64,000 bases of DNA from positions 97,209-161,208 of IMG/VR virus record IMGVR_UViG_3300037042_006682; one strand, 5' to 3'. The DNA comes from a virus. Every line of letters begins with the position of its first letter. Positions within the stretch are counted from its first letter, which is position 1. Below are positions 7,145 through 25,243 of this stretch, in pieces. The notes under the pieces were generated by a model that worked only from the letters and a program-made list of their open reading frames with translations, ran no database searches and was not told the origin of the DNA. Made by a program: the position numbers and the translations under genes.

Positions 7145-7642
7145 TTACCCCACCGCACCGCCGCGTGTCAAGCCCTCCACAAGCGCCCGCAGGCGCTGGC
7201 TCAGCGACCGGGCCTCGCCCTTCAGCGTCCATGGCCCCTCGAACTCCGCGCGCCTCTTGCCCACGAGCTTGTAGTACTTCGCGTCCTTCGCGGCGTGGTT
7301 CCGGTCCCGCTGGTGCCTCTGGATGTACTTGCGCCCGCGCGGCGTCTGCTGGTGCGGCTTCCGCCGCTTGAAGTACGGCAGCTTGGGCCCGTGGTGCAAC
7401 GCCGCGACCCCGCGCGCGATGGCGTGCGCCTTCGGGGCGTCCGAGCGCCGCGGGGGCGTCTTCTTCCGCAGCCCCCCCACGATCGCCACCACGGCGTGCC
7501 GCGTGTAGGGGTCCGCCGCCCGCGGCTTCTGCACCTTGATCGCGGCCCCCCCATGGGGCGTCTTCCCCTCGATCAGGGCCCGCAGGCGCGCGCTGAGCCG
7601 CTCCCCGCGCGTCAGCGCCACGGCGTCAGAGGCTCCACGCAT
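7145..7642 (-). CDS. Basic leader-bearing protein, putative internal head protein
   Basis: About 165 aa from ATG 7642; a GTG at 7621 is an alternative start. The N-terminal part carries LSARLRALIEGKTP, the leader seen in the neighbouring genes, with LIE-G as possible cleavage site. A second copy, SLSQRLRALVEG, is ten residues from the C-terminus. The middle is strongly basic and His-rich (KRRKPHQQTPRGRKY), fitting contact with DNA. It is the last gene before the terminator. If the LxE sites are cut, both ends would be removed. Confidence 0.65.
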   Translation of the reverse strand: MRGASDAVALTRGERLSARLRALIEGKTPHGGAAIKVQKPRAADPYTRHAVVAIVGGLRKKTPPRRSDAPKAHAIARGVAALHHGPKLPYFKRRKPHQQTPRGRKYIQRHQRDRNHAAKDAKYYKLVGKRRAEFEGPWTLKGEARSLSQRLRALVEGLTRGGAVG

Positions 7643-7949
7643 CCCAGACCGCCTCGAACTGCTTGTACGCCTCGGCCACGGCCGCCTGCGCCAGGAACAG
7701 CGTGTGGGCCTGCGTCGCCTCCCACGTGGCCTCGTAGTCCTTGCGCGGCACATCGACCTCGTAGTGCATCAGCGGGCGGATCCCCGCCATCTCCTCCCGC
7801 TTCGCCTTCAGCGCCCGCACCGCCTGAGCCAGGGCCTCGGCCGCCTTGAGGACGGGGTCCACCTTGGGCACCACCTTGCGGGCCTTGATGACCGCCTCGG
7901 GGACCTTTACCTCGTCCAACTGCCGGATCAGCGCCTTCATGCTCCTCAT
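7626..7949 (-). CDS. Leader-bearing small helical protein, 107 aa
   Basis: Starts MRSMKALIRQLDEVKVPE; the ATG overlaps the preceding stop as ATGA. The leader lacks LIE but has LDE-V four residues further on. The rest is helical (AAEALAQAVRALKAKREEM) and ends WDAWSL. No family recognised; grouped with the putative internal head proteins by its leader and place. Confidence 0.7.
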   Translation of the reverse strand: MRSMKALIRQLDEVKVPEAVIKARKVVPKVDPVLKAAEALAQAVRALKAKREEMAGIRPLMHYEVDVPRKDYEATWEATQAHTLFLAQAAVAEAYKQFEAVWDAWSL

Positions 7950-8305
7950 ACGGGCCTCCCCATCGCGAGTTCCCACGCGTCCGTCACGCCCCACTTGGCC
8001 TCGTCAATAGCGATCAGTTGCTCCTGGTACGCCGCCATCGCCTGGCGGTCCGCCCGGTCCAGCCCCTTGACCAGCTTGGCCAGGTCCGCGACCTCCTTGT
8101 CGAACCGCGCCACCGCCGCATGCACGCCCTTGAGCACGGCCTCCGTCGGCACGTGCATCTGCTGGTTCCGCTGGTCGATCTCGCGCCGCCGCGCCTCCTT
8201 CGACTGGAAGTCCCCCGGCGCCACCTCGCGCCGCCGCTGGACCCCCTCGATCACCGCGATCCGCCGCTTGACCCCCTCGATCACCGCGCTCATCCGCTGT
8301 GCCAT
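7946..8305 (-). CDS. Leader-bearing helical protein with a doubled leader, 119 aa
   Basis: ATG 8305 has GGAGG seven bases upstream. The N-terminus is MAQRMSAVIEGVKRRIAVIEG, that is, two tandem copies of xAVIEGVxRR. At DNA level a ~30-bp unit is repeated at about 8232-8297. The remainder is helical and charged, with a C-terminal VTDAWELAMGRPV. Two VIE-G sites would offer two cleavage points. Confidence 0.7.
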   Translation of the reverse strand: MAQRMSAVIEGVKRRIAVIEGVQRRREVAPGDFQSKEARRREIDQRNQQMHVPTEAVLKGVHAAVARFDKEVADLAKLVKGLDRADRQAMAAYQEQLIAIDEAKWGVTDAWELAMGRPV

Positions 8306-8307
8306 CG

Positions 8308-8652
8308 TCACTCCTCCGTGTCGGAGTGGGCCGCGCCGTGCGCGAACCCCACCTGGAATAGCAGCCCATCGACGGCCTTGTTCAGCGCGATCACGGCCGC
8401 CTGCATGCGGGGGTCCGTCGCCGGGCGGTCCAGCCCCTGGACCAGCTCCGCCACGCGCCCCGCCGCCTGCTGCAGCGCCGCCGCCTTGGCCCCCGCGGCC
8501 TGGCGCGCGTTGGCCACGCCCCGCGCGTCCTGCGGGGAGCGCCACGCCACCTGCATCCCGCTGGTGACCTGCCCCCAGTTCGCGGGCACGCCCTCGGCCA
8601 GCAGGCCCGAGGCGACCAGGCTCGCCTCGATCATCGTGCGCATGCGCGTCAT
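8308..8652 (-). CDS. Leader-bearing small protein, 114 aa
   Basis: Begins MTRMRTMIEASLVASG after AAGGAGG; MIE-A is the leader site. Residues 55-90 are an Ala-rich helix with AAALQQAAGRVAELVQ. The C-terminus is acidic (AAHSDTEE). Two bases separate it from the next gene. Function unknown. Confidence 0.65.
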   Translation of the reverse strand: MTRMRTMIEASLVASGLLAEGVPANWGQVTSGMQVAWRSPQDARGVANARQAAGAKAAALQQAAGRVAELVQGLDRPATDPRMQAAVIALNKAVDGLLFQVGFAHGAAHSDTEE

Positions 8653-8661
8653 GGCGCCTCC

Positions 8662-9051
8662 TTACTCGGTCGCACCCCTGAATTTCCATTCCTTCTTGGC
8701 GAAGTCGTACCACGCCTGTAGCAGCGTGATCCCATTGCTGCCGCCAGCCCTGTGCTCCCACGAAATATCCAGTGGGATCTGCATCATGTTGTGCTGGGCG
8801 CTGTAGTGCCCCGCGCCCTTCACGACCACCGTGCTCATCACGGCCTCGAAAACCCCCGCCTTGCCCACTAGCTCGTCGCTCTTCACGATCAAACGCCAGG
8901 GTCCAGCAGACGACAACTTGGCCGTCAACTTCACCGGCACCTTGAGGGCCTTGGAGACCTGCTGCTCCAGCGGCTTGATGTCGATCTCGTCCTCGCTCGG
9001 ACCCTCAGTGGCCTCGTGCAACCGCCCGATCAGGGTGCTCATCTTCTGCAT
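8662..9051 (-). CDS. Leader-bearing small protein, 129 aa
   Basis: Begins MQKMSTLIGRLHEATEG, with LHE-A at the position where others have LIE. The body is mixed alpha/beta (VPVKLTAKLSSAGPWRLIV), a single globular domain I do not recognise. A 6-bp-arm hairpin GGCGCC-GGT-GGCGCC on the minus strand (plus 9077-9091) lies between it and the gene before. Confidence 0.65.
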   Translation of the reverse strand: MQKMSTLIGRLHEATEGPSEDEIDIKPLEQQVSKALKVPVKLTAKLSSAGPWRLIVKSDELVGKAGVFEAVMSTVVVKGAGHYSAQHNMMQIPLDISWEHRAGGSNGITLLQAWYDFAKKEWKFRGATE

Positions 9052-9119
9052 GGTATCTCCATTCTCAGGGGCGCCACCGGCGCCGCGTTTGCTACTTCGC
9101 GAGCCCCGCGCGCGCCGCC

Positions 9120-9641
9120 CTACGGCAGCACGTAAATGGTGCTGACCCCGCGCTTGCGCGCCTCCGCCTGGGCCGCCTTGACCGCCTCGGCATAGAGCAT
9201 GTTGCCGCCGGGGGCGAACGCCTCGTCCGACCGCATGTCCGGGTCCTGCGTGCCAATGCCGAACATCCAGTTGCCGCGCCCCTTCGGGGCCGCCCCGTGG
9301 TTGAAGCGGTACAGGTTGGTCTCCACGTTGACCTTGCCGGTCGCCTCTTCCAAGCGCCGGATCAGGCTCTGCATCTTCGTCATGGTGTCCTCACCCTTGA
9401 TGGCCCGCTCGTAGGCCGCATCTTTGCCATGGGCCGCCGCGTCGCGTCCATGCGCCCGGATCGCCCGCTTGCCCTTGGCCGTCTTGTGCTTCGTGCCGGG
9501 CTCGTAGTAGCCGGCCTTGTTCCCGCCCGCCTTGCAGATCGCGAAGGCCGCGCCCTTGTCCTTGCCACCCTTGGTGACGCCCGCCACGCAGTGCCGCATG
9601 TAGGCGTCCGCCCGCTCGATCAACGCTTGCATCGACTCCAT
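9120..9641 (-). CDS. Two leader-bearing modules fused in one reading frame, 173 aa
   Basis: Module 1 (1-85) starts MESMQALIERADAYMRHC and holds the Cys-containing AFAICKAGGNKAGYYEPGT motif seen in various phage proteins, then a basic stretch. Module 2 starts at about residue 86 with a complete second leader, MTKMQSLIRRLEEATG, itself preceded by GGTGAGG, so an 88-aa product could also be made from an internal start. The second half resembles no family I know. The layout suggests either an operon fusion or a polyprotein cut at LEE-A. Confidence 0.75.
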   Translation of the reverse strand: MESMQALIERADAYMRHCVAGVTKGGKDKGAAFAICKAGGNKAGYYEPGTKHKTAKGKRAIRAHGRDAAAHGKDAAYERAIKGEDTMTKMQSLIRRLEEATGKVNVETNLYRFNHGAAPKGRGNWMFGIGTQDPDMRSDEAFAPGGNMLYAEAVKAAQAEARKRGVSTIYVLP

Positions 9642-9651
9642 GCTCGCCTAC

Positions 9652-10023
9652 TCACACGCTCGCCAGGATCCGCACGGGGACCGGGCTCGTCGGCGCCGTG
9701 GTCCCCGGCGTGCCGGGGCTCGTCACGCAGCAGCACGTGAGCCCCACCCCGAACGCCAGGCCCTCCGGCACCGCGAACGACCGCTTGACCGCCGCGGGGA
9801 CCATCAGCACGAGGTGCGGGTCCACGGACCCCGGCGCCGCGCTCACCGCGTTGTAGAACTTCACGTAGCTGGGGGCCCCCGCGTTGCCCGTGTTGTCGGC
9901 CTCCACGAGGTACAGCGTGCAGGGCGCCCCGAAGAGGTTGTTCTGCGCCGTCACGCCGAGGGCCGTGTCCACCGCGAGGCGGGTCGCGACCGGGTTCACC
10001 TGGGTACTGACTGCCATCACCAT
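9652..10023 (-). CDS. Small structural-type protein, 123 aa
   Basis: Begins MVMAVSTQVNPVATRLAV after a GAGG ribosome site. It is beta-rich, with many small residues and a Cys triplet near residue 98 (TCCCVTSPGTPGTT). It lacks the leader of its neighbours. Size and composition recall small capsid decoration or connector proteins; that is inference. It is preceded by a 26-nt palindrome that may mark a new expression unit. Confidence 0.55.
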   Translation of the reverse strand: MVMAVSTQVNPVATRLAVDTALGVTAQNNLFGAPCTLYLVEADNTGNAGAPSYVKFYNAVSAAPGSVDPHLVLMVPAAVKRSFAVPEGLAFGVGLTCCCVTSPGTPGTTAPTSPVPVRILASV

Positions 10024-10041
10024 GCTCGTCCTCGTTTCCTC

Positions 10042-10067
10042 GCGCTGCGCATGCGCATGCGCAGCGC
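10042..10067. repeat. Border palindrome, 26 nt, perfect
   Basis: A perfect self-complementary element with core TGCGCATGCGCATGCGCA extended by GCGC on both sides. It overlaps the stop codon of the metallopeptidase gene by one base and ends 18 nt before the next ATG. Confidence 0.85.
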
Positions 10068-11440
10068 TACCTTACCACCGCGCCCCCCGCCCTGTCCGCA
10101 AACTCGCGCAGGAGGGCCCCGAGGCCCCCGTCAACCCCCTCGCTCTGTGCCGCCCGCCCCAGCGCCAGCGCCTCGAAGCGCGCCCGCTGCGGGCCCGTCA
10201 GCACCACGCCGTTATAGTCCCCCAGCACATAGGCCGCGAAGGTCTCCGCGAACTCCTCCACCGCCGACTCTGCCCCGTAGGCCGTCGGCGCGGGCACATA
10301 CCCCGCCTGCGGGCCCTCGCGCTCCTGGTCCGCCTTGCTGCGCGGGTCGAACCACGCCGCGAAGCGCGCCCGCGCCCCCGCCTTCATCACCTTGTACCAA
10401 TAGCGATGGCCTAGCTCGTGTACTGCGATCTCCGCCACCACATCGGGCGTCCACCACCCCTTTGGGTTCAGGACAATCTCCTCGCTCGTGTTGTAATGCC
10501 CCGCAACCTTAAAGTTCACCCCAGACTTAGCCTTCTTTAACGTAAGCGCACGCGCCACAGGACGCACAAAAATCTCCCCATACCACACGCCCCCCATCCC
10601 CCGCTGTACCAGCGCCCGCTGCGCCGCTTGCAACCCTGCATGCACAGCCCGCATTACACCTATGTTCACGCTGCGCTCCCCAACGGGCGCTCCCGCAATG
10701 TCATCGGATCGTGCCAGGGCACTCAAATCCACTTGTGCACCTGGATCTGTCACGACTTTCATGCGCCCTAGACTGTACTCTAGCGGCGGGGCCTCCGCGA
10801 CGACCGCGGCCGTGTTCGGCGAGACCTGCAACAGTTTAAGATAGGCGCGCAAGGCCGCCTGCACCTCGATGTCGACCGCCTTAACCGCATTGCCCTCGTT
10901 GCGCATCTCAAGCTGCCACGAGGTTAGCTCCCCCTCGTCCGTGGCCCCCGTTTGCGAGCGATTGCCCATGCGATCATTAAAGGCGCGCTTGGCCTCCGAA
11001 TCTGGATATTCTACATCGAACCATTGCTGCTCCCGCCCCATCATATTTTGTAGCGCCTTATGGGCTACATCCAGATGCGGCAAAACCCCCTGCTCCGGCG
11101 CCTTTGAAAGAGCATGCCCCGCCACACGGGCTGGCATCTTTAGCACGGCATAGGCTCCCGCTTTGTAAGGGCGCCGCTCCATCGCAGTAAGGGCCGCCTT
11201 CGCAACATCCTGCGGCACCGCTATCCCAGCCGCCCGCACCAAGGCATCCTTCAGCGCCGCGATCCGAGCCTGCCCCTCGGCAAACCACGCGAGCACCTGG
11301 CCGCGATCTTTAGGGTCGCGGATCTGCGCCACCGTGGCCGCGGCCTTCACCCACTGCCCCCACCACTTGCGGACCCCCGCCAGCCACGCCTTGGTGCCCG
11401 GCTCGGGGGCCGCCTCCAGCAGGGTCAGCAGCTCACGCAC
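10067..11440 (-). CDS. Leader-bearing zinc metallopeptidase-like protein, 457 aa
   Basis: GTG start at 11440 gives MRELLTLLEAAPEPG, matching the neighbouring leaders (LLE-A), with AAGGTG upstream and an 8-nt overlap with the preceding gene. Around residues 350-360 the protein has VHELGHRYW, an HExxH zinc-peptidase motif, and about 40 residues later ESAVEEFAETFAAY, whose glutamate could be the third ligand. This is a gluzincin-like or phage MuF-associated peptidase pattern. The middle third (about 10.5-11.2 kb) is less GC-rich than its surroundings. It may be an injected protease or a structural protein with a vestigial peptidase fold. Confidence 0.75.
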   Translation of the reverse strand: MRELLTLLEAAPEPGTKAWLAGVRKWWGQWVKAAATVAQIRDPKDRGQVLAWFAEGQARIAALKDALVRAAGIAVPQDVAKAALTAMERRPYKAGAYAVLKMPARVAGHALSKAPEQGVLPHLDVAHKALQNMMGREQQWFDVEYPDSEAKRAFNDRMGNRSQTGATDEGELTSWQLEMRNEGNAVKAVDIEVQAALRAYLKLLQVSPNTAAVVAEAPPLEYSLGRMKVVTDPGAQVDLSALARSDDIAGAPVGERSVNIGVMRAVHAGLQAAQRALVQRGMGGVWYGEIFVRPVARALTLKKAKSGVNFKVAGHYNTSEEIVLNPKGWWTPDVVAEIAVHELGHRYWYKVMKAGARARFAAWFDPRSKADQEREGPQAGYVPAPTAYGAESAVEEFAETFAAYVLGDYNGVVLTGPQRARFEALALGRAAQSEGVDGGLGALLREFADRAGGAVVR

Positions 11441-11828
11441 GGCGCACCTTCGCAGCCAGCGTACCGAGGGCGACCCCCCAGTCCGTCGCCGCGCTCGCCG
11501 CGCCCCGCAACCGCTGGTCCGCCGCCCGCACCGCGGCATCCTTCATCTGGTCCCCCGGCCAGAACAGCCCCATGCGGCCCAGCTCATAGCTCGTGGCTAG
11601 GGACCACACCTTCGCATCGTGCTTCTTCTTGACCAGGAGCACCTCGCGGTCAAAGCCCTCGACCCGCGCGTAGGCCCCCCAGTAGGAGCGCGCGGTCCCC
11701 GGCCGATCGCGCCCCATGATCCAGCCCTCCCACGTGATCGTCACGGGGCGCTTCGCCCCCGCCACCACCACGCGGACCGCGCCCGTGCCCTCGACCAGCG
11801 CCCGTAGGCGTGCGCTCAAGCAGGTCAT
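11433..11828 (-). CDS. Leader-bearing protein, 131 aa
   Basis: Begins MTCLSARLRALVEGTG with GAGGAGG before the ATG. LVE-G is the leader site, and SARLRAL is shared with the protein at 7145-7642. The body is a mixed alpha/beta domain (VRVVVAGAKRPVTITWEGW) with a C-terminal helix. Unknown family. Confidence 0.7.
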   Translation of the reverse strand: MTCLSARLRALVEGTGAVRVVVAGAKRPVTITWEGWIMGRDRPGTARSYWGAYARVEGFDREVLLVKKKHDAKVWSLATSYELGRMGLFWPGDQMKDAAVRAADQRLRGAASAATDWGVALGTLAAKVRRA

Positions 11829-11838
11829 CGCGCCCTCC

Positions 11839-12696
11839 TCAGTCCATCGTGCTGAAGATGTGGTACGCCAGCTTCGCATCGGACAGCGCCTTGTACAGCT
11901 CGCGGAACGTCATGCGCTTGATGTCGCTGAGGTTCGCCTGCACCCACAGGTAAAAGGCCTTGATCGCCGTCTTCTTTGCCCCATAGGTCGGCGGCATGAT
12001 GATCGGCGTGTCGTCCCCCCCGTGGCCCGGCCGCGGCTTCTCCGACACGGAGAAGTCCGTCAGGGAGGCCTCCAGCGTGAAGGTCGGCGTCTCGACCTTG
12101 ATCTGCGCCCCCGCGGCGCCCTGCGCGGGCTCCACATCGACCCCGCGCGACGACCCCTCGGTGAACTTGACGCGGTCCGCATACGCGGCCTTCCCACTCT
12201 CGGCATCCCGCACCTGCGCCGCCGTCTCGCGCGCGATCTGCACGGCCTGCGCGTACCCCTTGGCCTTCGCAATCGCCTTCAAGCCAGCCTCTAGGATCGC
12301 CACCGCCTTGGCGCTAGCGAAGCCGTCGTTGCGCGGGTCGAACCCGCTGAGGGTGAACGAGGACACCGTCTTGCCGCGCTTGCCCGCGTTGGCGAGGTCC
12401 AGGACATGCAGGTTCGTCATGAAGCGGTGCAGGCGCATGCCGTTGCGCTCCACCGTCTGCGCCATGGGCACCCCCGCATTCTGGTCCACATAGAAGCGCT
12501 CGGGCGCCTCCGCCTTGGGCAGCGCCTGCTGCGTCGCCCCCTGGATCACCGCCGCCATGCCCTGCGCGGGGCTCGCCGGGGGCGCCGGGGGCGTCGCCAC
12601 CGTCTGCCCCTTGGGGTCCTTCCCGCCGGGCAGCACGCGCAGGGTCACGCCCGTCTTCGTCGTCGTCTCCACCCGCTCCAATAGCTGCCGCATCAT
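11839..12696 (-). CDS. Leader-bearing protein, 285 aa
   Basis: ATG 12696 with AAGGAG seven bases upstream gives MMRQLLERVETTTKTG. A Pro/Ala linker (residues ~30-45) follows, then a domain with RFYVDQNAGVPMAQTVERNG and a GSSRGVDVEPAQG stretch, and a C-terminal helical part ending YHIFSTMD. No catalytic motif identified. Confidence 0.7.
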   Translation of the reverse strand: MMRQLLERVETTTKTGVTLRVLPGGKDPKGQTVATPPAPPASPAQGMAAVIQGATQQALPKAEAPERFYVDQNAGVPMAQTVERNGMRLHRFMTNLHVLDLANAGKRGKTVSSFTLSGFDPRNDGFASAKAVAILEAGLKAIAKAKGYAQAVQIARETAAQVRDAESGKAAYADRVKFTEGSSRGVDVEPAQGAAGAQIKVETPTFTLEASLTDFSVSEKPRPGHGGDDTPIIMPPTYGAKKTAIKAFYLWVQANLSDIKRMTFRELYKALSDAKLAYHIFSTMD

Positions 12697-12707
12697 GAGT
12701 CTGCTCC

Positions 12708-13793
12708 TTAGCTCCACGTCGAAGACGTGCCTTTACGGGCAATTTTATGATCGTCCAACCAGGCCCCTAAGTCCTTGTAGGCCACGCCCTTGAGGGCTGC
12801 GGGCTGCGCCTGCAGCAGCTTGAACAGCTTGGCCGCGGCACTCGGCCCCTTCTCCACGGTCCCCGTGTAGTAGGGGCTGCTCTGCTGGAAGTCGCTGTTC
12901 GGCGAGTAGGCGCGGAAGGTCTTCCACGTCACCTTGAGCGCGAAGTCCTTGCCGTCCACGACCAGCTCCGTGTCCCCGCCCTCGGGGGCCACGCGGCCCG
13001 CCGGCACGGCCTGTTCCCGCCAGCTCCCCTGCTGCTGCAGCCAGTCCGGCCGGTGTGCCCCCTCCCACTTCGCGATGACCGCGCCCTGCGCCTCGGCCAC
13101 CGCCTTCCCGACCTTGTCCTTGATCGCGTCGAAGCCGTCGCTGTCCGCGAGTTTGGCAAAATGCAGGATGTTCTGCGGGAGCATCGCGTCCCAGGCGCGC
13201 GCCATCTGCCCCCCGCGGTACCCCGTCCCCAGCTCGGCCACGCGCAGCTGGCGCTTCCCCTTCACGGGCAGCTCCTCCAGCCGGTAGCTCTCCCCGTAGT
13301 AGCCGATGGTGAGCCGCGCTCCCGCCCCTGTGAATACCATGGTGTCGTTGCTGCGCTTCTCCAGCTTCTCCAGCAGCACGCGCAGCGAGGCCTGCTGCGC
13401 CCCCTCGCTCCGCTCGCCCTGGCCCAGCGCACGGGAGGCCGCATCCTTCGGCGCGTACCCGTCCTTCTGCGCGGAGGCATACGCCTTCTGGAGGCGCTCC
13501 CACCACCCCGCCACGGCCTGCCCCGCTGCTGCCTCCGACTTAAAGGCCTGCCCCTGGAACATCGCCTCCCAGGTCGGCAGCCCCTTGCGATCGACACGCC
13601 ACGCCGTGCCCTCGTTGTTATCCTGAATGATCCGCACGGCTACGTCCACGGGGCCCACCTTGAAGGTCCGCCCGTAGGCCATCCGCTTGCCATCCGGGCT
13701 CGGGTGCTCCTCCCATCCCTTGAGGTAGAGCGCCTTCGCCTCCTTGTGTATGTCAAACTTCTCCAACAGGGTGTGTATCGTCGGGATAGTCAT
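12708..13793 (-). CDS. Leader-bearing protein with a second internal leader, 361 aa
   Basis: Begins MTIPTIHTLLEKFDIHKEA; the ATG and the preceding stop overlap as TGATG. Around residue 136 a second leader-like segment, SLRVLLEKLEKRSND, follows a linker (GERSEGAQQA), dividing the protein into two domains of about 130 and 220 residues. The first domain has a possible nucleotide- or phosphate-independent beta core (KVGPVDVAVRIIQDNN). Neither domain matches a family I know. The design parallels the fused protein at 9120-9641. Confidence 0.7.
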   Translation of the reverse strand: MTIPTIHTLLEKFDIHKEAKALYLKGWEEHPSPDGKRMAYGRTFKVGPVDVAVRIIQDNNEGTAWRVDRKGLPTWEAMFQGQAFKSEAAAGQAVAGWWERLQKAYASAQKDGYAPKDAASRALGQGERSEGAQQASLRVLLEKLEKRSNDTMVFTGAGARLTIGYYGESYRLEELPVKGKRQLRVAELGTGYRGGQMARAWDAMLPQNILHFAKLADSDGFDAIKDKVGKAVAEAQGAVIAKWEGAHRPDWLQQQGSWREQAVPAGRVAPEGGDTELVVDGKDFALKVTWKTFRAYSPNSDFQQSSPYYTGTVEKGPSAAAKLFKLLQAQPAALKGVAYKDLGAWLDDHKIARKGTSSTWS

Positions 13794-15397
13794 CACTTGC
13801 CTCCGTAGACCGCGTGGTCCGCCGCCTTGACGAGCAGCTTGCAAATCGCCTGATACTTGGGGTCGTGACCGCTCGATGGAATCGCGCGGCTCTCCGGGGC
13901 CACCTTCACCATCCCGCTCAGCATCCGCCCGAGGTACATCACGATCTCGGGATGCACCTTCTGCAGCTTCCCTACCGCCTCGCGTATCCAGTCGAGGTTG
14001 ACCTCCTCAGTCATCCCCCCCACCGCCTCGGTGAAGCCCTTGGGGTCCTTCAGGGCGATGTCGACCGTGCGCCCCATGCGCTGCTGCACCACCAGGAAGC
14101 GGTCCCCCTCGACCTCCTTGGCCACCGCCAGGAGGTAGTTCTGGTTCAGCGCCCGCTTGCCGTCCGCCGCCGCCATCAGGGCATCGTTCTTCTTCGCCGA
14201 CTGCCCGCTCGTCGTCGCGCTCGGGCTCGCCAGCAGCACGGCCTCCGCGGCCTGCGGGACCCCGCTGATCAGCTGCCAGCCCTTGCGCCCCTTCCAGAGC
14301 GTCACGAAGGCCTGGGAGTCCGCCGCCGGCCCGTGGTCCTTATTCACAAAGACCAACCACTCCTTGCTCGTGCCCTCCGCCCACGGGGCCATCCCCGCCC
14401 GGCGGAAGGCCGCCTTGGCCGCCCCCTCCAGCGTCCGCTCGCTGGGCGCGCGGTCCCCCGCCGCCTCGCCCATGGCCCCCGCCTTCTTGCGCGCGATCGT
14501 CCCGCACAAGGCCTTGGGATCGCTCACGCCCCCCTTGGCCTTCATGTACTTCACGCAGTTCCCAAACTTCTCCCCCTTGCGCCCCTTGAAGGCCCCCGTC
14601 TTCGGGTTGATGTACTTCGCGCTGAGCTGCTGCTGCTTCGACGCCTTCTTCTTCTTGGCCGCCGCCTCCATCAACGCCGCGACCCAGTGCCCCACGGCCT
14701 CGCTGGCCTCCTCGGCGTCCATCTCCTCGTCGTCGTCCTCGGGCCCCTCGCAGTCCTCGCAGGCCGCCCCGTCGCTCTCATCCCGCGCCTCGCAGGCCCG
14801 CGGCTCGCCCGTCACCGGGCACACACCCTCGTCGCCCATGTCCTCGCCCTCGTCCCCACCGTCCTCCTCGTCCTCGTCGTCCTCCACCGCCTCAAACCTC
14901 TTCGCCGCCGGCGCGAAGGCCTGCGTCGTGCTGAAGTACCGCTGCAGGATGAGATCCGCCATCTCGCGCCCGCTGATCCGCACCATGAGCAGGTACCAGT
15001 AGATCGGCATGTTCTCGGGCTGCGCCCGCATGAGCCGCGCCGCCTTCGGGGCCACCTTCGCGATGTTGCGCAGCGCCAGCTTGAACGCCTCGCGCGGCCG
15101 GTTCGCCAGCACGTCCTGCGCGTCCGCCATGTTGTCCGCCCCCAGCAGCGCGGGGAGGTCCTCGCGCGGGATCGCCTTCAGGAGCGCGCGCTGGTTGTCA
15201 AAGATCATGTTGGAGAGGTCCAGCTTCCCCTGGTCATCCTTCCACGCCGCCGGCGCGTCCTTCTCCCACATCCTGAGGATCTTGCTGCTCACCTTGAAGG
15301 CCCCCGGCCGCACCGGGGTGTCCTCGCCCGCCATCGCCATCGCCGCGGGGCCCGTCTGGCGCTCCATCAATGATCCCAACCGCTCGCTCAACCGCAT
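13793..15397 (-). CDS. Large leader-bearing protein with acidic, Cys-containing middle, 534 aa
   Basis: ATG 15397 (MRLSERLGSLMERQTG) is preceded by GAGGGA; frames extending further upstream run through a border palindrome and are not used. Residues 20-165 are helical. About 170-250 is highly acidic with Cys pairs (CPVTGEPRAC, CEDCEG). Then come a lysine run (AAAKKKKASK) and a motif FGNCVKYMKAKGGVSDPKAL found in many phage proteins. The C-terminal 200 residues are alpha/beta. Length and acidity recall a head core or scaffold component, but that is only an analogy. Confidence 0.65.
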   Translation of the reverse strand: MRLSERLGSLMERQTGPAAMAMAGEDTPVRPGAFKVSSKILRMWEKDAPAAWKDDQGKLDLSNMIFDNQRALLKAIPREDLPALLGADNMADAQDVLANRPREAFKLALRNIAKVAPKAARLMRAQPENMPIYWYLLMVRISGREMADLILQRYFSTTQAFAPAAKRFEAVEDDEDEEDGGDEGEDMGDEGVCPVTGEPRACEARDESDGAACEDCEGPEDDDEEMDAEEASEAVGHWVAALMEAAAKKKKASKQQQLSAKYINPKTGAFKGRKGEKFGNCVKYMKAKGGVSDPKALCGTIARKKAGAMGEAAGDRAPSERTLEGAAKAAFRRAGMAPWAEGTSKEWLVFVNKDHGPAADSQAFVTLWKGRKGWQLISGVPQAAEAVLLASPSATTSGQSAKKNDALMAAADGKRALNQNYLLAVAKEVEGDRFLVVQQRMGRTVDIALKDPKGFTEAVGGMTEEVNLDWIREAVGKLQKVHPEIVMYLGRMLSGMVKVAPESRAIPSSGHDPKYQAICKLLVKAADHAVYGGK

Positions 15398-15423
15398 CGC
15401 TCGTCCCTCATTCCCTTGGTTAT

Positions 15424-15441
15424 CGCGCATGCGCATGCGCG
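15424..15441. repeat. Border palindrome, 18 nt, perfect
   Basis: CGCGCATGCGCATGCGCG, six bases after the stop of the 259-aa gene and 26 nt before the next ATG. Confidence 0.85.
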
Positions 15442-15447
15442 GCTCGC

Positions 15448-16227
15448 TCATCTCTCGCCCGGCAGCGCGAAGTCCACCGGCACGCGCGCCGCCCGCAGGC
15501 CCGCCCGCAGCGCCGCGAGGTCCATCCCCGGCAGCGCCGCCGCGTGCTCGTCCACCCAGCGCGCGAACATCGTCCCCACCGCGTACTTGCCCGCGGCCCC
15601 CGTGCGGATCGCCACGTCCCGGCCATCCCACATGCGCAGGCTCACGGCTGGCCAGCTGTAGGACAGCACGAAGTCCTTCCCCCGCAGCTCCTCGCTGCTA
15701 TGCGCCAGCCCCACGGGCCGCCGCTGGCTCTCCTCAAAGGGCGTCCGCAGCGTGGCCGCCCCGTCGATCAGGAACCGCTCGGGGCCCTGGAGCCCGCGGT
15801 TCGCGGCCTCCGCCGCCGCCTGCACCCGCGCCCAGACGCGCGGCCACCCCGCCTCGCCGTAGGCCGCCCGCAGCGCCGCCCGGAAGCCCTCCACCGCCGC
15901 CTCGACCATGGCCCCCGCGCGCCCCGCCTCGACCCGCTGGGCATCGCGCGCCGCCCACTGCGCCTTCGTCAGCTTGCGCCCCCGCGGCGGGGCCGCCATG
16001 GGCACCCGCGGCGTCGCCGGCACGCTCACGCGCCCCACGTGCCCCAGCCCCGTGAGGTCCACCACGAGCACATCCACGAGGTCGCGCGGATACCGCGTGC
16101 CCTGCGCGCAGAACACCCGCACGTCGTCGACCGCCCAGCCCAGCTCGGCGTTCCACACGCTCTCCACGCTCGCGTTGTACCGGGTCCCCCGCTCGATCGC
16201 TTCCAGCAGTTGTCGCATCGCAGCCAC
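15448..16227 (-). CDS. Leader-bearing protein, 259 aa
   Basis: Begins MAAMRQLLEAIERGTRYN (LLE-A site). It has its own promoter at 16276-16304. A beta-rich N-terminal half (VRVFCAQGTRYPRDLVDVLVV) is followed by an Ala-rich helical region and a C-terminal beta segment with FVLSYSWPAVSLRMWDGRDV. Not recognised. The promoter suggests the block from here leftwards can be transcribed separately. Confidence 0.7.
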   Translation of the reverse strand: MAAMRQLLEAIERGTRYNASVESVWNAELGWAVDDVRVFCAQGTRYPRDLVDVLVVDLTGLGHVGRVSVPATPRVPMAAPPRGRKLTKAQWAARDAQRVEAGRAGAMVEAAVEGFRAALRAAYGEAGWPRVWARVQAAAEAANRGLQGPERFLIDGAATLRTPFEESQRRPVGLAHSSEELRGKDFVLSYSWPAVSLRMWDGRDVAIRTGAAGKYAVGTMFARWVDEHAAALPGMDLAALRAGLRAARVPVDFALPGER

Positions 16228-16275
16228 GTCTACCCTCCGGCAAGCGCGCGCCCCCTCTCGTCTGCTCGCTGATCG

Positions 16276-16304
16276 ACTCTACCGACCCGCCCGCCCCCTG
16301 CCAA
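16276..16304 (-). promoter_or_regulatory. Sigma70-type promoter inside the internal-protein block
   Basis: Minus strand: -35 TTGGCA (16299-16304), 17-nt spacer, -10 TAGAGT (16276-16281), 48 nt before the ATG of the 259-aa gene. Confidence 0.55.
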
Positions 16305-16329
16305 GAAATCCCCACGCCCCGCTCGCGCT

Positions 16330-16434
16330 TTACCCCGCCGCGAGCCACGCGAGCACCGCCAGGACGAGCCCCGCCACGGCCAGCCCGATGAGCGCCGCGA
16401 GGGCCACGTCGCGCCCGCCCGGCCCTACGCCCAC
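16330..16434 (-). CDS. Single-pass membrane mini-protein, 34 aa
   Basis: GTG start overlapping the upstream gene end by about 8 nt. The peptide MGVGPGGRDVALAALIGLAV continues as one hydrophobic helix of about 22 residues and ends WLAAG. Too short to classify. It may be a small membrane protein or a chance frame in GC-rich DNA. Confidence 0.35.
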   Translation of the reverse strand: MGVGPGGRDVALAALIGLAVAGLVLAVLAWLAAG

Positions 16435-16739
16435 GCCGGCCCCACCGGGGGCTGCGAGATCGGCCCCTCGGCCGCCCCCGTCGCGCGCAGGGCCTCCGTG
16501 AGGGCCGCCACGCACAGCGCCACGTGCCGCCGCGTCGCCGCCGCATCCCGCCCCAGGCCCCCGGCCTCCGCGAGCTTCGCCAGCAGCGCCGCCGCATTGC
16601 GCACCGCCGCCCAGGCGTCCGCCGCCTCCGCGGGGTCCCCGCCCCGCTTGCCGTCCAGCAGCAGCCCCAGCGCCGCGCGCATCAGCGCGTTCGCCTCGGC
16701 CTCCGCCAGCGCCTCCATCCTCTCGATGAGCTGTTTCAT
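16425..16739 (-). CDS. Leader-bearing small helical protein, 104 aa
   Basis: ATG 16739 gives MKQLIERMEALAEAEANALM (LIE-R). The protein is Ala-rich and helical throughout, ending ISQPPVGPAWA. The leader places it with the internal-protein set. Function unknown. Confidence 0.6.
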   Translation of the reverse strand: MKQLIERMEALAEAEANALMRAALGLLLDGKRGGDPAEAADAWAAVRNAAALLAKLAEAGGLGRDAAATRRHVALCVAALTEALRATGAAEGPISQPPVGPAWA

Positions 16740-16749
16740 GGCCCCCAGC

Positions 16750-17055
16750 CTACCGCCGCGCGGGCCGCCCCGCAAGCTCGTCCCCCGCCCCCGATGGCAC
16801 GAGCCCCGCCGCCTCCGCCTTCTCCTGCAGCGCCTTGAGCGCGAACGCAAACAGCTCCGCCGGGGGATGTCCATAGGCCCGCCCCAGGGCCCGCGCGCGC
16901 TCCCAGGTGTCCCTCGTCACGAGCATCATCACCAGGTCGTCGTGCTGGAGGGCCTCATCCGGCCGCGGGTCGAGCTTGCCATCCTCGGCCCCCGCGATCT
17001 CCCGCTGCGGCCCCCCGCGCGGCCCCCCGCGCGCCTGTGCCCGCATCACCATCAA
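16750..17055 (-). CDS. Small hypothetical protein, 101 aa
   Basis: Begins MMVMRAQARGGPRGG; the start overlaps the stop of the 252-aa gene as ATGA. The N-terminus is Gly/Arg-rich. Residues 45-85 form two helices (VTRDTWERARALGRAYGHPPAELFAFALKAL written in two parts: VTRDTWERARALGRAYG and PPAELFAFALKAL), reminiscent of a small RHH- or HTH-sized unit. Coupled translation suggests a partner role to the upstream protein. Confidence 0.55.
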   Translation of the reverse strand: MMVMRAQARGGPRGGPQREIAGAEDGKLDPRPDEALQHDDLVMMLVTRDTWERARALGRAYGHPPAELFAFALKALQEKAEAAGLVPSGAGDELAGRPARR

Positions 17056-17810
17056 ATGGCCGTCTGGTCGAGCTTGCCAACGCCGTGCCCCGCCCCGTCC
17101 CAGGTCTTGTCGTCAAACTTGTACGGCGCCGCCCCGCTCCCCACCGCATCCTTCTGCCGCCCCACGTAGGCCACGCCCTTCATGGGCTGCTGCACCACCT
17201 GCCGGAACGTCAGGGCCACCGTGGCGAGCCGTGGCACGCCGTTCGCGAAGCAGAGGCTGTACGTCACGTCGCAGCCCGTCATCACCGCGAAGATCGCATC
17301 CCCGCCCTTCTCGTTCCAGTTAAGCCCCGGCGCGTGCAGGATCGCGATCGGCGGGGGGTACGCCTCCACGTGCGTCTCCCCCTGCGTGTACAGCGGGTAA
17401 CAGAACGCCCGCAGGTAGCGGATGGCCCCCGCGACGTCCGCGTTCCACCCCGGCGCGTCCGCCCCCTTCGTCATCCCAAAGGGGTCGAAGAGCTTCTCCA
17501 TCACCGTGCGGTCGCCCTCCGGCTTCATGAGCCGGCTCATGGTGACCTCGAACGAGATCGTGCGCCCCCCGTTGCTGCCCCACGTCGCGAGCGCGTGCGA
17601 GGCCCCAGGGATCTCGCTGAAGTTCCAGCCGATCTCGATCGTGTCGGAGATGCTCTCAGGCCAGTACTGGAAGGCGCGCTGCGGGAGCGCGGGCTTCCCC
17701 GCGTCCGCCGCCAGCGCGTCGATCCCGCACATGCTCATCCACGCCGGCTTCTCGCCGGTGGGCCCGTCCATGATAATGCTGGCGATGCCGCCGAAGACCC
17801 CGAGGGCCAT
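17052..17810 (-). CDS. Putative tail or baseplate structural protein, 252 aa
   Basis: The N-terminal region contains FQYWPESISDTIEIGWNF followed by a short EIPGASHALATW segment and ISFEVTMSR. This WP-x-SI-D...G...isF pattern is what I associate with tail-tube-cap or baseplate tube proteins of the T4 gp48/gp54 or LysM-tube type. The middle contains MTKGADAPGWNADV and a hydrophobic core, with KFDDKTWDGAGHG near the C-terminus. It lacks the leader of the surrounding genes. Role inferred from the motif only. Confidence 0.5.
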   Translation of the reverse strand: MALGVFGGIASIIMDGPTGEKPAWMSMCGIDALAADAGKPALPQRAFQYWPESISDTIEIGWNFSEIPGASHALATWGSNGGRTISFEVTMSRLMKPEGDRTVMEKLFDPFGMTKGADAPGWNADVAGAIRYLRAFCYPLYTQGETHVEAYPPPIAILHAPGLNWNEKGGDAIFAVMTGCDVTYSLCFANGVPRLATVALTFRQVVQQPMKGVAYVGRQKDAVGSGAAPYKFDDKTWDGAGHGVGKLDQTAI

Positions 17811-17836
17811 GGCCTACCTCCCGCGGCGCCCCGCGC

Positions 17837-18745
17837 TCAGTACTCGACCCCTAGCGCGTCATCCACCAACTTGGCTGTCCGCGCATCGAGCTTGCGTGCT
17901 AGCGTCCGCAGGGCCACGGGGGAATAACCCATCTTGCGCATCATGGGATTGGCCCGCTGCAGGAACATCTCCAGGGGGGTCCCCAATGCCTTGACCAGCG
18001 TCACGACCGGCTTGTCCAACCCGCCCCCCATCAAGGTCGTGAGCTTGTCCTGCAGCAACAGGGCATACACATAGGCCAACGCGGCCTCCGCGTCTTCTGG
18101 ATTCGTGTCCATCACGGCCTCCGCGACCGCCTTGCCCTTGCCGCCCGCCGCGCAGCCCCCCTCATCATCCGCCTTGGCCTTCCCCTTCCCCTTGGCCGCC
18201 TTCTTCTTGCCCTTGCGCCCTTCGTCGAGGATCGCCCGGAGCGACGCCAGCAGGGGGTCCGCCCCCTCCATCTCGGGCTCCGCGTCCGCCGCGCTGCCGT
18301 TGGGCTCCTCGGGCTCCAGGTCCTGCGCGCCCTCGTCCTCCAGGTCCGCGCCCTCGTCGCCCTCGGCGATGGCCCAGCCCACGGAGCCCTCCGCGTCGAT
18401 CGCCAGCATGGTCTCGTCGTCGAGCATGATCACGGCGCCCGGCGGGTCCTCATCCAGCGCCACCCCCACGACCTCGGCCGTGGTGTCCGCCGGCACCTCG
18501 ACGGCCTCGCCGTCCTCCGTGTACGCAATCGTGTCGCTGACCGCGACGAGGGGCACGCCCTCCTCCCAGCCCGCGAACAGGTCCCCCTCAGCCATCGCGT
18601 TGGGCTCCTCCGGCTCCAGGGCCTCCCCGTCGCCTTCAAACCCCGCGTCCACCATCTCGCCTTCGGCCTCCGCGCCCTCGCGCACCACGGCCACGGCCTC
18701 GCCCGCCTGCCCCTTCAGGGCCTCCATCAATGCTCGCATCGTCAT
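17837..18745 (-). CDS. Acidic leader-bearing protein, 302 aa
   Basis: ATG 18745 (MTMRALMEALKGQAGEA) has GAGGAG eight bases upstream and follows a border palindrome. LME-A is the leader site. Residues 20-165 are very acidic, with two EPEEPN repeats and a beta-rich core (VEVPADTTAEVVGVALDEDP). A lysine-rich linker (GRKGKKKAAKGKGKAK) follows, then a helical C-terminal domain. The acidic body plus leader recalls scaffold or core proteins of T4-type proheads. It is first in the leader-bearing block. Confidence 0.65.
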   Translation of the reverse strand: MTMRALMEALKGQAGEAVAVVREGAEAEGEMVDAGFEGDGEALEPEEPNAMAEGDLFAGWEEGVPLVAVSDTIAYTEDGEAVEVPADTTAEVVGVALDEDPPGAVIMLDDETMLAIDAEGSVGWAIAEGDEGADLEDEGAQDLEPEEPNGSAADAEPEMEGADPLLASLRAILDEGRKGKKKAAKGKGKAKADDEGGCAAGGKGKAVAEAVMDTNPEDAEAALAYVYALLLQDKLTTLMGGGLDKPVVTLVKALGTPLEMFLQRANPMMRKMGYSPVALRTLARKLDARTAKLVDDALGVEY

Positions 18746-24363: not shown

Positions 24364-24861
24364 TCAGTCCTCTAGGATCCCACACTTGAAAAACACCAGC
24401 ATCGCCTCGGCATCGAGGATGCCGTCGGGGATCTCGGTCCGCTTGATCTTGTAGGGCTCGAAGTCGGTGGTGAGCCGGAGCAGCTCCTCCTCCTTCTTCG
24501 TCAACGCCTGCTCATCGATCTCCGCCTGGGGGTGCTCCTGACGGAGGGCCGCCTGGGCGATCTCCAGGGCGTCGGGATGCGCGATCTGATACCGGAAGGC
24601 CCCCGGCTGATCCATGATCGGCGTCCGCTTGGGCTCCCCCGCCGCCGTCTTCTCCGCGTGCGCCTCGACCAGCTTGTTCCGCGCCGTGCTGAACGCCTTC
24701 ATGGCCTCCGTGGGCTCGATCTGCTTCTTGAGATCCTCGATCGGCTTGTCGAGCTTCGCCCGATTCCGCGCGATGGCCCACGCCACATTCGTCACCTTGA
24801 CCGCACTGTGCCGCCGCAACGTCGCGTCGCACACCAACATCAACTCGTTCAACAACTGCAT
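24364..24861 (-). CDS. Helical protein, DUF1617-like, 165 aa
   Basis: Begins MQLLNELMLVCDATLRRHSA. The order VTNVAWAIARNRAKL, ARNKLVEAHAEK, a short turn, then EEELLRLTTDFEPYKIKR and a C-terminal hydrophobic strand LVFFKCGILED fits my memory of the small phage family DUF1617, found next to tail genes. Function unknown. It has its own promoter and an inverted repeat upstream, so it may start a unit that includes the 714-aa fibre. Confidence 0.5.
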   Translation of the reverse strand: MQLLNELMLVCDATLRRHSAVKVTNVAWAIARNRAKLDKPIEDLKKQIEPTEAMKAFSTARNKLVEAHAEKTAAGEPKRTPIMDQPGAFRYQIAHPDALEIAQAALRQEHPQAEIDEQALTKKEEELLRLTTDFEPYKIKRTEIPDGILDAEAMLVFFKCGILED

Positions 24862-24898
24862 CGTCCTGCTCCTTCATTGGCCACGTTCAACCGTCCAT

Positions 24899-24920
24899 CT
24901 TTGAGTGGTTCTTACTCAAG
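24899..24920. promoter_or_regulatory. TTGAGT inverted repeat, possible operator
   Basis: TTGAGT and ACTCAA with 7 nt between lie just downstream of the -10 element, a place where a bound repressor would block transcription. A similar perfect repeat lies at 40133-40151. Confidence 0.4.
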
Positions 24921-24922
24921 CC

Positions 24923-24952
24923 ACGCTACCACAGCCGATCGCCCCCCGCCAA
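24923..24952 (-). promoter_or_regulatory. Promoter before the DUF1617-like gene
   Basis: Minus strand: -35 TTGGCG (24947-24952), 18-nt spacer, extended -10 TGG-TAGCGT (24923-24928). It lies 62 nt before the ATG at 24861. Confidence 0.45.
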
Positions 24953-24973
24953 CCTTCCGCGCACCCATGCACG

Positions 24974-25228
24974 TCACGCCACGGGGATCTTCGCGATCTC
25001 CGCCTCGACCACCATGGCCTGCGCATCGAGCGCCGTGAGCTGCGCCTCCAGGCGGGGCTTCACGGTCCCCATCGCATAGGCCACCGCCACCGCGATGCGG
25101 TCCGGCTCCGTCGCCCCGAACACGAGCGCCTCGACCTGCTCCGTCGTCACGCCACCCCCGCCCATGCCCAAGTAATACTGCCGCAGCATCTCGTTCGCCC
25201 ACGCCTTCTGATCCGTTGTAAAGGCCAT
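24974..25228 (-). CDS. Small helical protein, 84 aa
   Basis: Begins MAFTTDQKAWANEMLRQYY, with a Gly loop (MGGGGVTTEQ) and a long C-terminal helix (RLEAQLTALDAQAMVVEAEI). It follows the LamG protein gene by 15 nt. It could be a fibre chaperone by size and position, as small helical genes after fibre genes often are; this is inference. Confidence 0.55.
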   Translation of the reverse strand: MAFTTDQKAWANEMLRQYYLGMGGGGVTTEQVEALVFGATEPDRIAVAVAYAMGTVKPRLEAQLTALDAQAMVVEAEIAKIPVA

Positions 25229-25243
25229 CCACGTGCTCCTGGG

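Follow-up and report, generated by a model that had tools for sequence, protein, structure and literature searches.

A gene block with a shared N-terminal leader in an uncultured T4-like phage as a candidate island of capsid-targeted cargo

Results

The virus record IMGVR_UViG_3300037042_006682 (G000) is 161 kb long and comes from an uncultured, T4-like phage (gp23/gp21-type) of a lineage without close cultured relatives. We read the record in stretches, without positions 96001-97208, and analyzed its last 64 kb, hereafter the window; a gp23-like capsid protein is encoded outside the window. Positions 7145-18745 of the window hold 17 genes, all on the minus strand, and 14 of them start with a leader of 6-18 residues ending in [LMV]-x-E. 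The genes are listed below, with an arrow at the putative cut.

7145..7621, minus strand: leader gene, 158 aa; MALTRGERLSARLRALIE↓G; putative mature form with pI 11.6
7626..7949, minus strand: leader gene, 107 aa; MRSMKALIRQLDE↓V, long form
7946..8305, minus strand: leader gene, 119 aa; MAQRMSAVIE↓G
8308..8652, minus strand: leader gene, 114 aa; MTRMRTMIE↓A
8662..9051, minus strand: leader gene, 129 aa; MQKMSTLIGRLHE↓A, long form
9120..9641, minus strand: two-module leader gene, 173 aa; N-terminal MESMQALIE↓R
9652..10023, minus strand: leaderless block gene; the blocks of relatives G002-G004 have, at a corresponding position, a similar N-terminus
10067..11440, minus strand: leader gene, 457 aa, GTG start; MRELLTLLE↓A and a probable zincin metallopeptidase body
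11433..11828, minus strand: leader gene, 131 aa; MTCLSARLRALVE↓G
11839..12696, minus strand: leader gene, 285 aa; MMRQLLE↓R
12708..13793, minus strand: leader gene, 361 aa; MTIPTIHTLLE↓K, with ASLRVLLEKLEKR as an internal leader around residue 137
13793..15397, minus strand: leader gene, 534 aa; MRLSERLGSLME↓R
15448..16227, minus strand: leader gene, 259 aa, GTG start; MAAMRQLLE↓A
16425..16739, minus strand: leader gene, 104 aa; MKQLIE↓R (also RME↓A)
16750..17052, minus strand: leaderless block gene
17052..17810, minus strand: leaderless block gene
17837..18745, minus strand: leader gene, 302 aa, acidic; MTMRALME↓A
10438..14053, no strand: core of the hypervariable island; adjoining blocks up to 97-98% identical to relative G001

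An earlier note had described a shared leader on about 14 proteins with unrelated bodies. All 14 are present in the sequence, and their bodies show no similarity to one another at E <= 1e-3; the three genes at 9652, 16750 and 17052 have no leader. The last gene had been read from the leucine of LSARL, but that codon is CTC, and the start is probably the GTG at 7621, giving VALTRGERLSARLRALIE↓G. The long forms that had been set apart (LHE, LDE and LEE) and the short ones (LIE, LLE, LVE, LME, MIE and VIE) are variants of one motif, [LMV]-x-E. Extra leader copies occur near the C-terminus of 7145-7621 (LSQRLRALVE↓GLTRGGAVG), inside 12708-13793, and inside 9120-9641, where a second leader, MTKMQSLIRRLEE↓A, runs from 9383 downward with its own GAGG box. 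Gene 12708-13793 looks like a fusion of two modules; in G001 a homologue of the first stands alone, behind another leader, MGTMRAMLE↓A. Three further leader genes form a second cluster by the tail sheath, outside the window, so that the record holds about 17 leader genes in two clusters.

The pattern [LIVM][LIVMAF]E occurs within the first 16 residues of 11 of the 17 block genes and of 3 of the 46 other window genes (Fisher p = 5e-6), and within-protein shuffles reached 11 block matches with p = 5e-5. A matrix trained only on the diverged relatives G003 and G004 and applied to 196 genes of the record placed leader genes at ranks 1-8 (AUC 0.93, p = 3e-9); with all block genes labelled by coordinate alone, the AUC was 0.81 (p = 1e-5). 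The shared leader described in the earlier note is confirmed. Among 45 leaders, P3 is leucine in 41, P1' is alanine or glycine in 36, and the commonest length is 10, with several G000 leaders being short (6-9 residues). The three diverged relatives, G002-G004, each carry 6-9 genes with near-uniform leaders, MRSLIRxLEE↓[A/G].

A DNA pattern for the leader gave 36 matches in six related records, on a single strand within each record, against 0 for a reversed-pattern control; in two more distant phages it gave 0. A codon-specific pattern scanned against the whole library found nothing beyond the three known diverged relatives, so the leader form appears confined to this lineage. Leader codons 2-11 have pS values of 0.66-0.76 and pN values of 0.24-0.26, against a pN of 0.72 in the following 10 codons, the low leader pN being partly circular because leaders were picked by motif. 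Synonymous saturation together with low pN indicates that the peptide, not the DNA, is conserved, and the same leader residues are encoded by different codons.

In the 96%-identical relative G001, the flanks of the block are kept and the mid-block leader genes are swapped. Within 10438..14053, leader genes are replaced, fused or diverged. At 7626..7949 the leader is identical in G001 and the body is 65-69% identical; at 11433..11828, SARLRAL[VI]EG is kept over a body of only 36-38% identity; and for 11839..12696 no homologue was found in the G001 stretches compared. The 7145..7621 gene is 91% identical to its G001 homologue, and the cargoes at 13793, 15448 and 16425 are strongly conserved (96-100% identity). 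These comparisons support a leader whose peptide sequence is kept while the bodies behind it are unrelated and exchanged rapidly, as in the T4 internal proteins.

Scans of the bodies against Pfam and PHROG gave nothing above curated cut-offs and no family with a meaningful score, the sole exception being phrog_9437, a family without assigned function, in one relative. Among the bodies scanned, no Pfam or PHROG match supported homology to the T4 IPI-III or Alt families, none matches a known anti-defence family, and PDB sequence searches returned nothing useful.

The body of 10067..11440 has homologues in G001, G002, G003 (two copies) and G004, at 49% identity in the diverged relatives (n=3). 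VHEL[GA]HRYW and EEFAE are invariant in 5 sequences, and this HExxH with a downstream Glu marks the body as probably a zincin-like zinc metallopeptidase, although it has no Pfam match and only a marginal structural one. AlphaFold modelled the full protein poorly (pLDDT 59) and the domain alone with a pLDDT of 69 and pTM of 0.74. The domain model had no PDB match at E <= 0.001; its best BFVD matches were phage putative peptidases, at a marginal E of 0.01 (probability 1.0). No relatives were found among 84,980 bacterial and archaeal genomes, hence no host clue.

The record encodes an S77/gp21-family prohead protease outside the window (PF03420; phrog_207, E 8.5e-34). The protease is fused to its scaffold, and an intein-like insertion interrupts its domain; the gene next to it codes for a conserved core protein distinct from it. 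PF03420 is above the Pfam cut-off in all four relatives G001-G004 (66 bits in the intein-free G001 protein, cut-off 27), and the motifs ELDHP and GVSSRG are conserved in alignment with T4 gp21. A genome lacking any prohead protease would speak against capsid targeting, as the earlier note had pointed out; that objection fails because the enzyme is encoded here and in the four related records. The likely cut site, L-x-E, recurs at the junction of the capsid propeptide, as NLSE↓DALST in this record and SLHE↓DTLST in G004, and at the start of the protease itself, which reads MPQLLIET in G004 and MNEPQLLIET in T4 gp21.

Discussion

Detailed knowledge of how short tags target proteins into phage heads comes mainly from T4-type phages, in which the cargoes that have been characterised, Ip1-3, block restriction enzymes of type IV. 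We read the block as an unusually large, hypervariable cargo island with a T4-type capsid-targeting leader, and from the sequence comparisons we put the probability of this reading at roughly 0.84. The sequence itself shows the leader, the way it is kept on bodies that are unrelated, the turnover of cargoes, and the protease. Docking, cleavage and packaging are strong inferences, as follows. Each cargo would carry a short amphipathic N-terminal helix, with consensus M-R-x-L-I-(R-x-L-E)-E↓[A/G], which would dock it into the prohead core during assembly, as the T4 capsid-targeting sequence (CTS) does. The S77 prohead protease would cleave after L-x-E, the leader departing and the mature body remaining in the head. 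Mature bodies would probably enter the new host together with the DNA and act there early on, in counter-defence or takeover; injection and anti-defence roles are no more than plausible.

The leader proteins might instead be protease-cleaved parts of the prohead core that set head size or shape, like T4 gp67/gp68, and not delivered effectors. The T4 gp67 start, MEGLIEAIKS, is almost the short leader seen here, IPIII has an assembly role (PMC9026906), and the three cargoes at 96-100% identity in G001 would suit such parts. We nevertheless consider this unlikely, since most mid-island bodies are replaced or lost while neighbouring DNA is 97-98% identical, which is unlike essential head parts, and a separate conserved core protein already lies beside the protease. 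Less probable again is that the leader stays uncleaved and is a helix that docks to a host factor or to some other part of the phage (tail, baseplate or injection apparatus). Tail/baseplate-type genes do adjoin the block, the tail sheath is close to the second cluster, and residues 2-9 of the leader are predicted, with low confidence, to be helical; but T4 ip genes likewise lie away from capsid genes, and the conserved Glu followed by a small A/G points to the protease, as does the presence of L-x-E, in the same phages, at the capsid junction and at the start of the protease.

Rapid gene exchange in the island could suggest that the leaders are alike at the DNA level, through recent duplication or a recombination hot-spot at gene starts. 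This is very improbable: the codons differ, the peptide is kept, and we rejected recent duplication on the synonymous saturation of the leader DNA. LxE is common in helical proteins, and the loose motif does appear in a few window genes outside the block, so amphipathic N-termini might arise by chance in a high-GC proteome rich in Leu, Glu and Arg; the block enrichment, the independent cross-genome ranking and the reversed-pattern control led us to reject chance, whose probability we regard as negligible.

Under the cargo-island reading, some 17 tagged proteins in one genome, and more in relatives, were detected by the tag alone, and should they indeed be packaged, the tag offers an immediate way of picking out phage effectors that act early. 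Near-identical genomes with swapped tagged cargoes show the pattern expected of counter-defence genes. We give slightly better than even odds to a broader proposal, an open cargo-loading platform with a portable 10-residue protease-cut tag, about 20 exchangeable cargoes per genome, a protease among the cargoes and double-cargo polyproteins cut at the internal tag. Were this so, it would be the largest short-tag capsid cargo set known to us, and to list the proteome that the phage delivers, reading the tag would suffice.

What is new here is the scale, a leader specific to the lineage, and the fusions of two modules; the T4 internal proteins had already shown the principle. As in T4 IPI, IPII, IPIII and Alt, a short leader (10 residues in IPIII, MKTYQEFIAE↓A) places hydrophobic-x-E before a small residue, the bodies are unrelated and variable, and the genome encodes an S77 prohead protease. 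T4 Ip1-3 have the leader alone in common, on unrelated bodies (PMC12373910), and in IPIII targeting depends on residues 4 and 7 and processing on 8 and 10 (PMC9026906). The consensus here differs, MRxLIRxLEE↓A/G, and about 17 leader genes rather than 4 lie in two clusters, with two-module genes that contain an internal leader and bodies without detected relation to the T4 IPs. A site matrix from these leaders did not rank gp21 substrates higher among T4 proteins (AUC 0.61, p 0.16), so the leader is T4-CTS-like in length, register and P1/P3, and not demonstrably of the same sequence family. The capsid-targeted set proposed earlier is partly supported: the protease, the peptide-conserved leader and the exchanged, unrelated bodies all speak in favour; the leader does not score as a T4 CTS. 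Compared with the starts of T4 gp67, gp21 and gp22 (MEGLIEAIKS, MNEPQLLIET and MLKEQLIAEA), the short form, MxxLIE↓A, resembles the gp67/gp21 type, and the G004 protease N-terminus is nearly identical to that of gp21; those T4 proteins are core proteins and the protease, whereas here the leader marks a candidate cargo set.

At least 10 IPs have been reported from the T-even phages as a group (PMC12373910), and phiKZ and 201phi2-1 have 19 protease-cleaved head proteins each (PMC10052503), so there is precedent for a cleaved set of large size. The claim of a set far larger than T4's holds against T4's own three IPs plus Alt. In phiKZ, 201phi2-1 and SPN3US, large sets of head proteins are likewise cut after x-x-E by a gp21-type protease, but several propeptides exceed 100 aa, the SPN3US motif is A-x-E, and there is no shared 10-residue L-x-E leader. 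The P1 Dar system also directs an anti-restriction protein (DarB) into the head by an N-terminal signal, which is longer than 9 residues and without consensus among Dar N-termini (PMC9024508). Zincin-like domains (HExxH plus a downstream E) occur in injected polyvalent proteins, predicted phage proteins delivered with DNA (PMC5512222). The probable metallopeptidase of 10067..11440, whose marginal structural neighbours are phage putative peptidases, has these residues in common with the polyvalent proteins, but would itself be the cargo, preceded by a CTS-like leader, rather than part of a giant multidomain protein. The leader described here also provides a second packaging-tag consensus for comparison with T4's.

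Leader genes in the block and at the record start

The 14 gene starts at which the earlier note had read a shared N-terminal leader ending [LMV]-x-E all exist, most with good ribosome sites, although the last had been placed too far downstream and its true start lies upstream. Of the 17 minus-strand genes in the block (window 7145-18745), 11 encoded [LIVM][LIVMAF]E within the first 16 residues, compared to 3 of 46 other genes (Fisher p 5e-6; shuffle p 5e-5). When 196 N-termini were scored with a matrix derived from the leaders, which is circular for its training set, 18 exceeded 12, versus 0.2% of internal segments. For a non-circular test we trained the matrix on diverged relatives only; leader genes took ranks 1-8 (AUC 0.93, p 3e-9), and with block genes labelled by coordinate alone the AUC was 0.81 (p 1e-5). 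As claimed, the bodies downstream of the leaders are mutually unrelated within the record, the sole exception being a weak pair in a second cluster outside the window (below).

Three more leader genes were found at the record start (stretch L011), close to the tail sheath gene, and similar genes lie at 103-107 and 143 kb in G001, a close relative (↓, predicted cut site):

L011 308-712, leader gene, MGTLSSRLRALVE↓G
L011 726-1334, leader gene, MRALLRRLEE↓G
L011 1331-1567, leader gene, MRALLTHLEE↓G

Head genes and the predicted cut site

The record is 161,208 bases long, the window being 97209-161208, and stretches beyond the window, L003 among them, gave the following head genes:

Large terminase region
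Portal (phrog_213, E 2.8e-35)
Prohead protease fused to a coiled-coil scaffold-like tail (phrog_207, E 8.5e-34)
gp23-like major head protein (phrog_138, E 1e-63)
L003:6437-9202 (record 24437-27202), prohead protease with an intein-like insertion
L003:11332-14364 and L003:14383-16233, portal (HNH match) and large terminase with intein-like insertions

The prohead protease sought elsewhere in the genome is thus present, and every related record searched encodes it too; its ELDHP and GVSSRG motifs line up with those of T4 gp21. Several features point to it as the enzyme that probably cuts the leaders. Its N-terminus, [K/Q]LL[I/T]ET, matches QLLIET of gp21, in which LIE-9 fits the gp21 cleavage logo (PMC9026906, a review). 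The capsid propeptide junction reads NLSE↓DALST in one lineage versus SLHE↓DTLST in another, with L and E retained and x differing. Among 45 leaders, P3 was L in 41 and P1' was A or G in 36, although P1 is E by construction and, for some of the relatives' leaders, the DNA pattern already specified P1'. The T4 IPIII leader has 10 residues, with 4 and 7 serving targeting and 8 and 10 processing (PMC9026906). The commonest leader here likewise has 10, positions 4 and 8 being hydrophobic and position 10 being E. This likeness is architectural, and a matrix from these leaders failed to single out T4's substrates.

While gp21 and gp22 are two genes in T4, protease and coiled-coil scaffold-like region form a single polypeptide in this lineage (L003:6437-9202; L010:8335-9939). 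G004, a diverged relative, also carries the protease insertion, which G001 lacks. In this record and G001, a conserved protein adjoining the protease (L003:9402-10460; record 27402-28460) is strongly basic in its central part, which is flanked by L-x-E sites; the protein is a candidate core component, and its middle may remain with DNA once cut. The nearest capsid relatives in named phage collections reached only ~32% identity over most of the protein (uncultured 595-kb phage LR756511) or 35% across two thirds of it (Microcystis phage Mel-JY01).

Conservation of the leader and exchange of putative cargo

Diverged relatives G002, G003 and G004, reached via the body of a probable metallopeptidase (10067-11440; 49% identity), carried 6-9 leader genes each (e.g. 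MRSLIRQLEE↓A, MRSLIRRLEE↓A, MRQLIRRLEE↓A, MRHLLRRLEE↓A). When the long leader was written as a degenerate DNA pattern, it matched 36 times across six related records, on a single strand per record; the reversed pattern gave 0 in the same search, and the long-leader pattern 0 in two distant phages.

Among leaders of G004 or of G003, synonymous differences affected 66-76% of sites over codons 2-11 and 66-71% over the next ten codons, and nonsynonymous differences 24-26% and 72%. The leader has therefore been retained as a peptide on bodies with nothing in common. Choosing leaders by motif lowers pN by construction; synonymous saturation is unaffected, and rules out recent copying.

G001 (168,532 bases) has flanking blocks up to 97-98% identical to this record, and the alignment mostly breaks between window 10438 and 14053. 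Relative to the stretches compared, leader genes exclusive to G001 began MSSLIERLQE↓G, MHTMSTLIE↓G, MRKMRALIE↓A, MTMRALIE↓G, MRTLLGRLEE↓T and MRELLQRLEG, the last deviating from L-x-E; exclusive to our record were 11839-12696 together with the latter half of 12708-13793. The first half of 12708-13793 was 47% identical to a stand-alone G001 gene bearing another leader.

In T4, Ip1-3 have the leader alone in common and are packaged and injected, each blocking a distinct GmrSD enzyme, and at least 10 IPs are reported for T-even phages together (PMC12373910). phiKZ and 201phi2-1 each have 19 protease-cut head proteins (PMC10052503), and propeptides of giant phages are often much longer (PMC5694885). 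The novelty lies in the lineage with a leader consensus of its own and ~17 leader genes in a single record, together with sequence evidence for cargo exchange behind a conserved tag, a predicted signal for packaging and cleavage of bodies that may then be delivered to the host.

Putative cargo bodies

Predicted mature products in the window were 10-56 kDa, with pI above 8 in 9 of 14 (extremes 4.1 and 11.6). A second, internal leader occurred in 9120-9641 and 12708-13793, and an extra one at the C-terminus of 7145-7621; in T4, Alt is cleaved at both termini (PMC5694885). Lys/Gly-rich segments with Cys in 13793-15397 (mid-protein) and 9120-9641 (KFGNCVKYMKAKGGVSDPKALCGTIARKK; AFAICKAGGNKAGYYEPG) look like a common small phage domain, and Pfam gave no identification of them.

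VHEL[GA]HRYW and EEFAE in 10067-11440, the probable metallopeptidase, were invariant across five homologues. Its modelled domain appears to resemble phage putative peptidases (E 0.01, probability 1.0), with no significant match in the PDB. Zincin metallopeptidases are the most frequent domain in predicted injected polyvalent phage proteins (PMC5512222). In G003 (L017:10001-12650) the metallopeptidase cargo stands in tandem duplicate, the copies 47% identical and each with its own leader.
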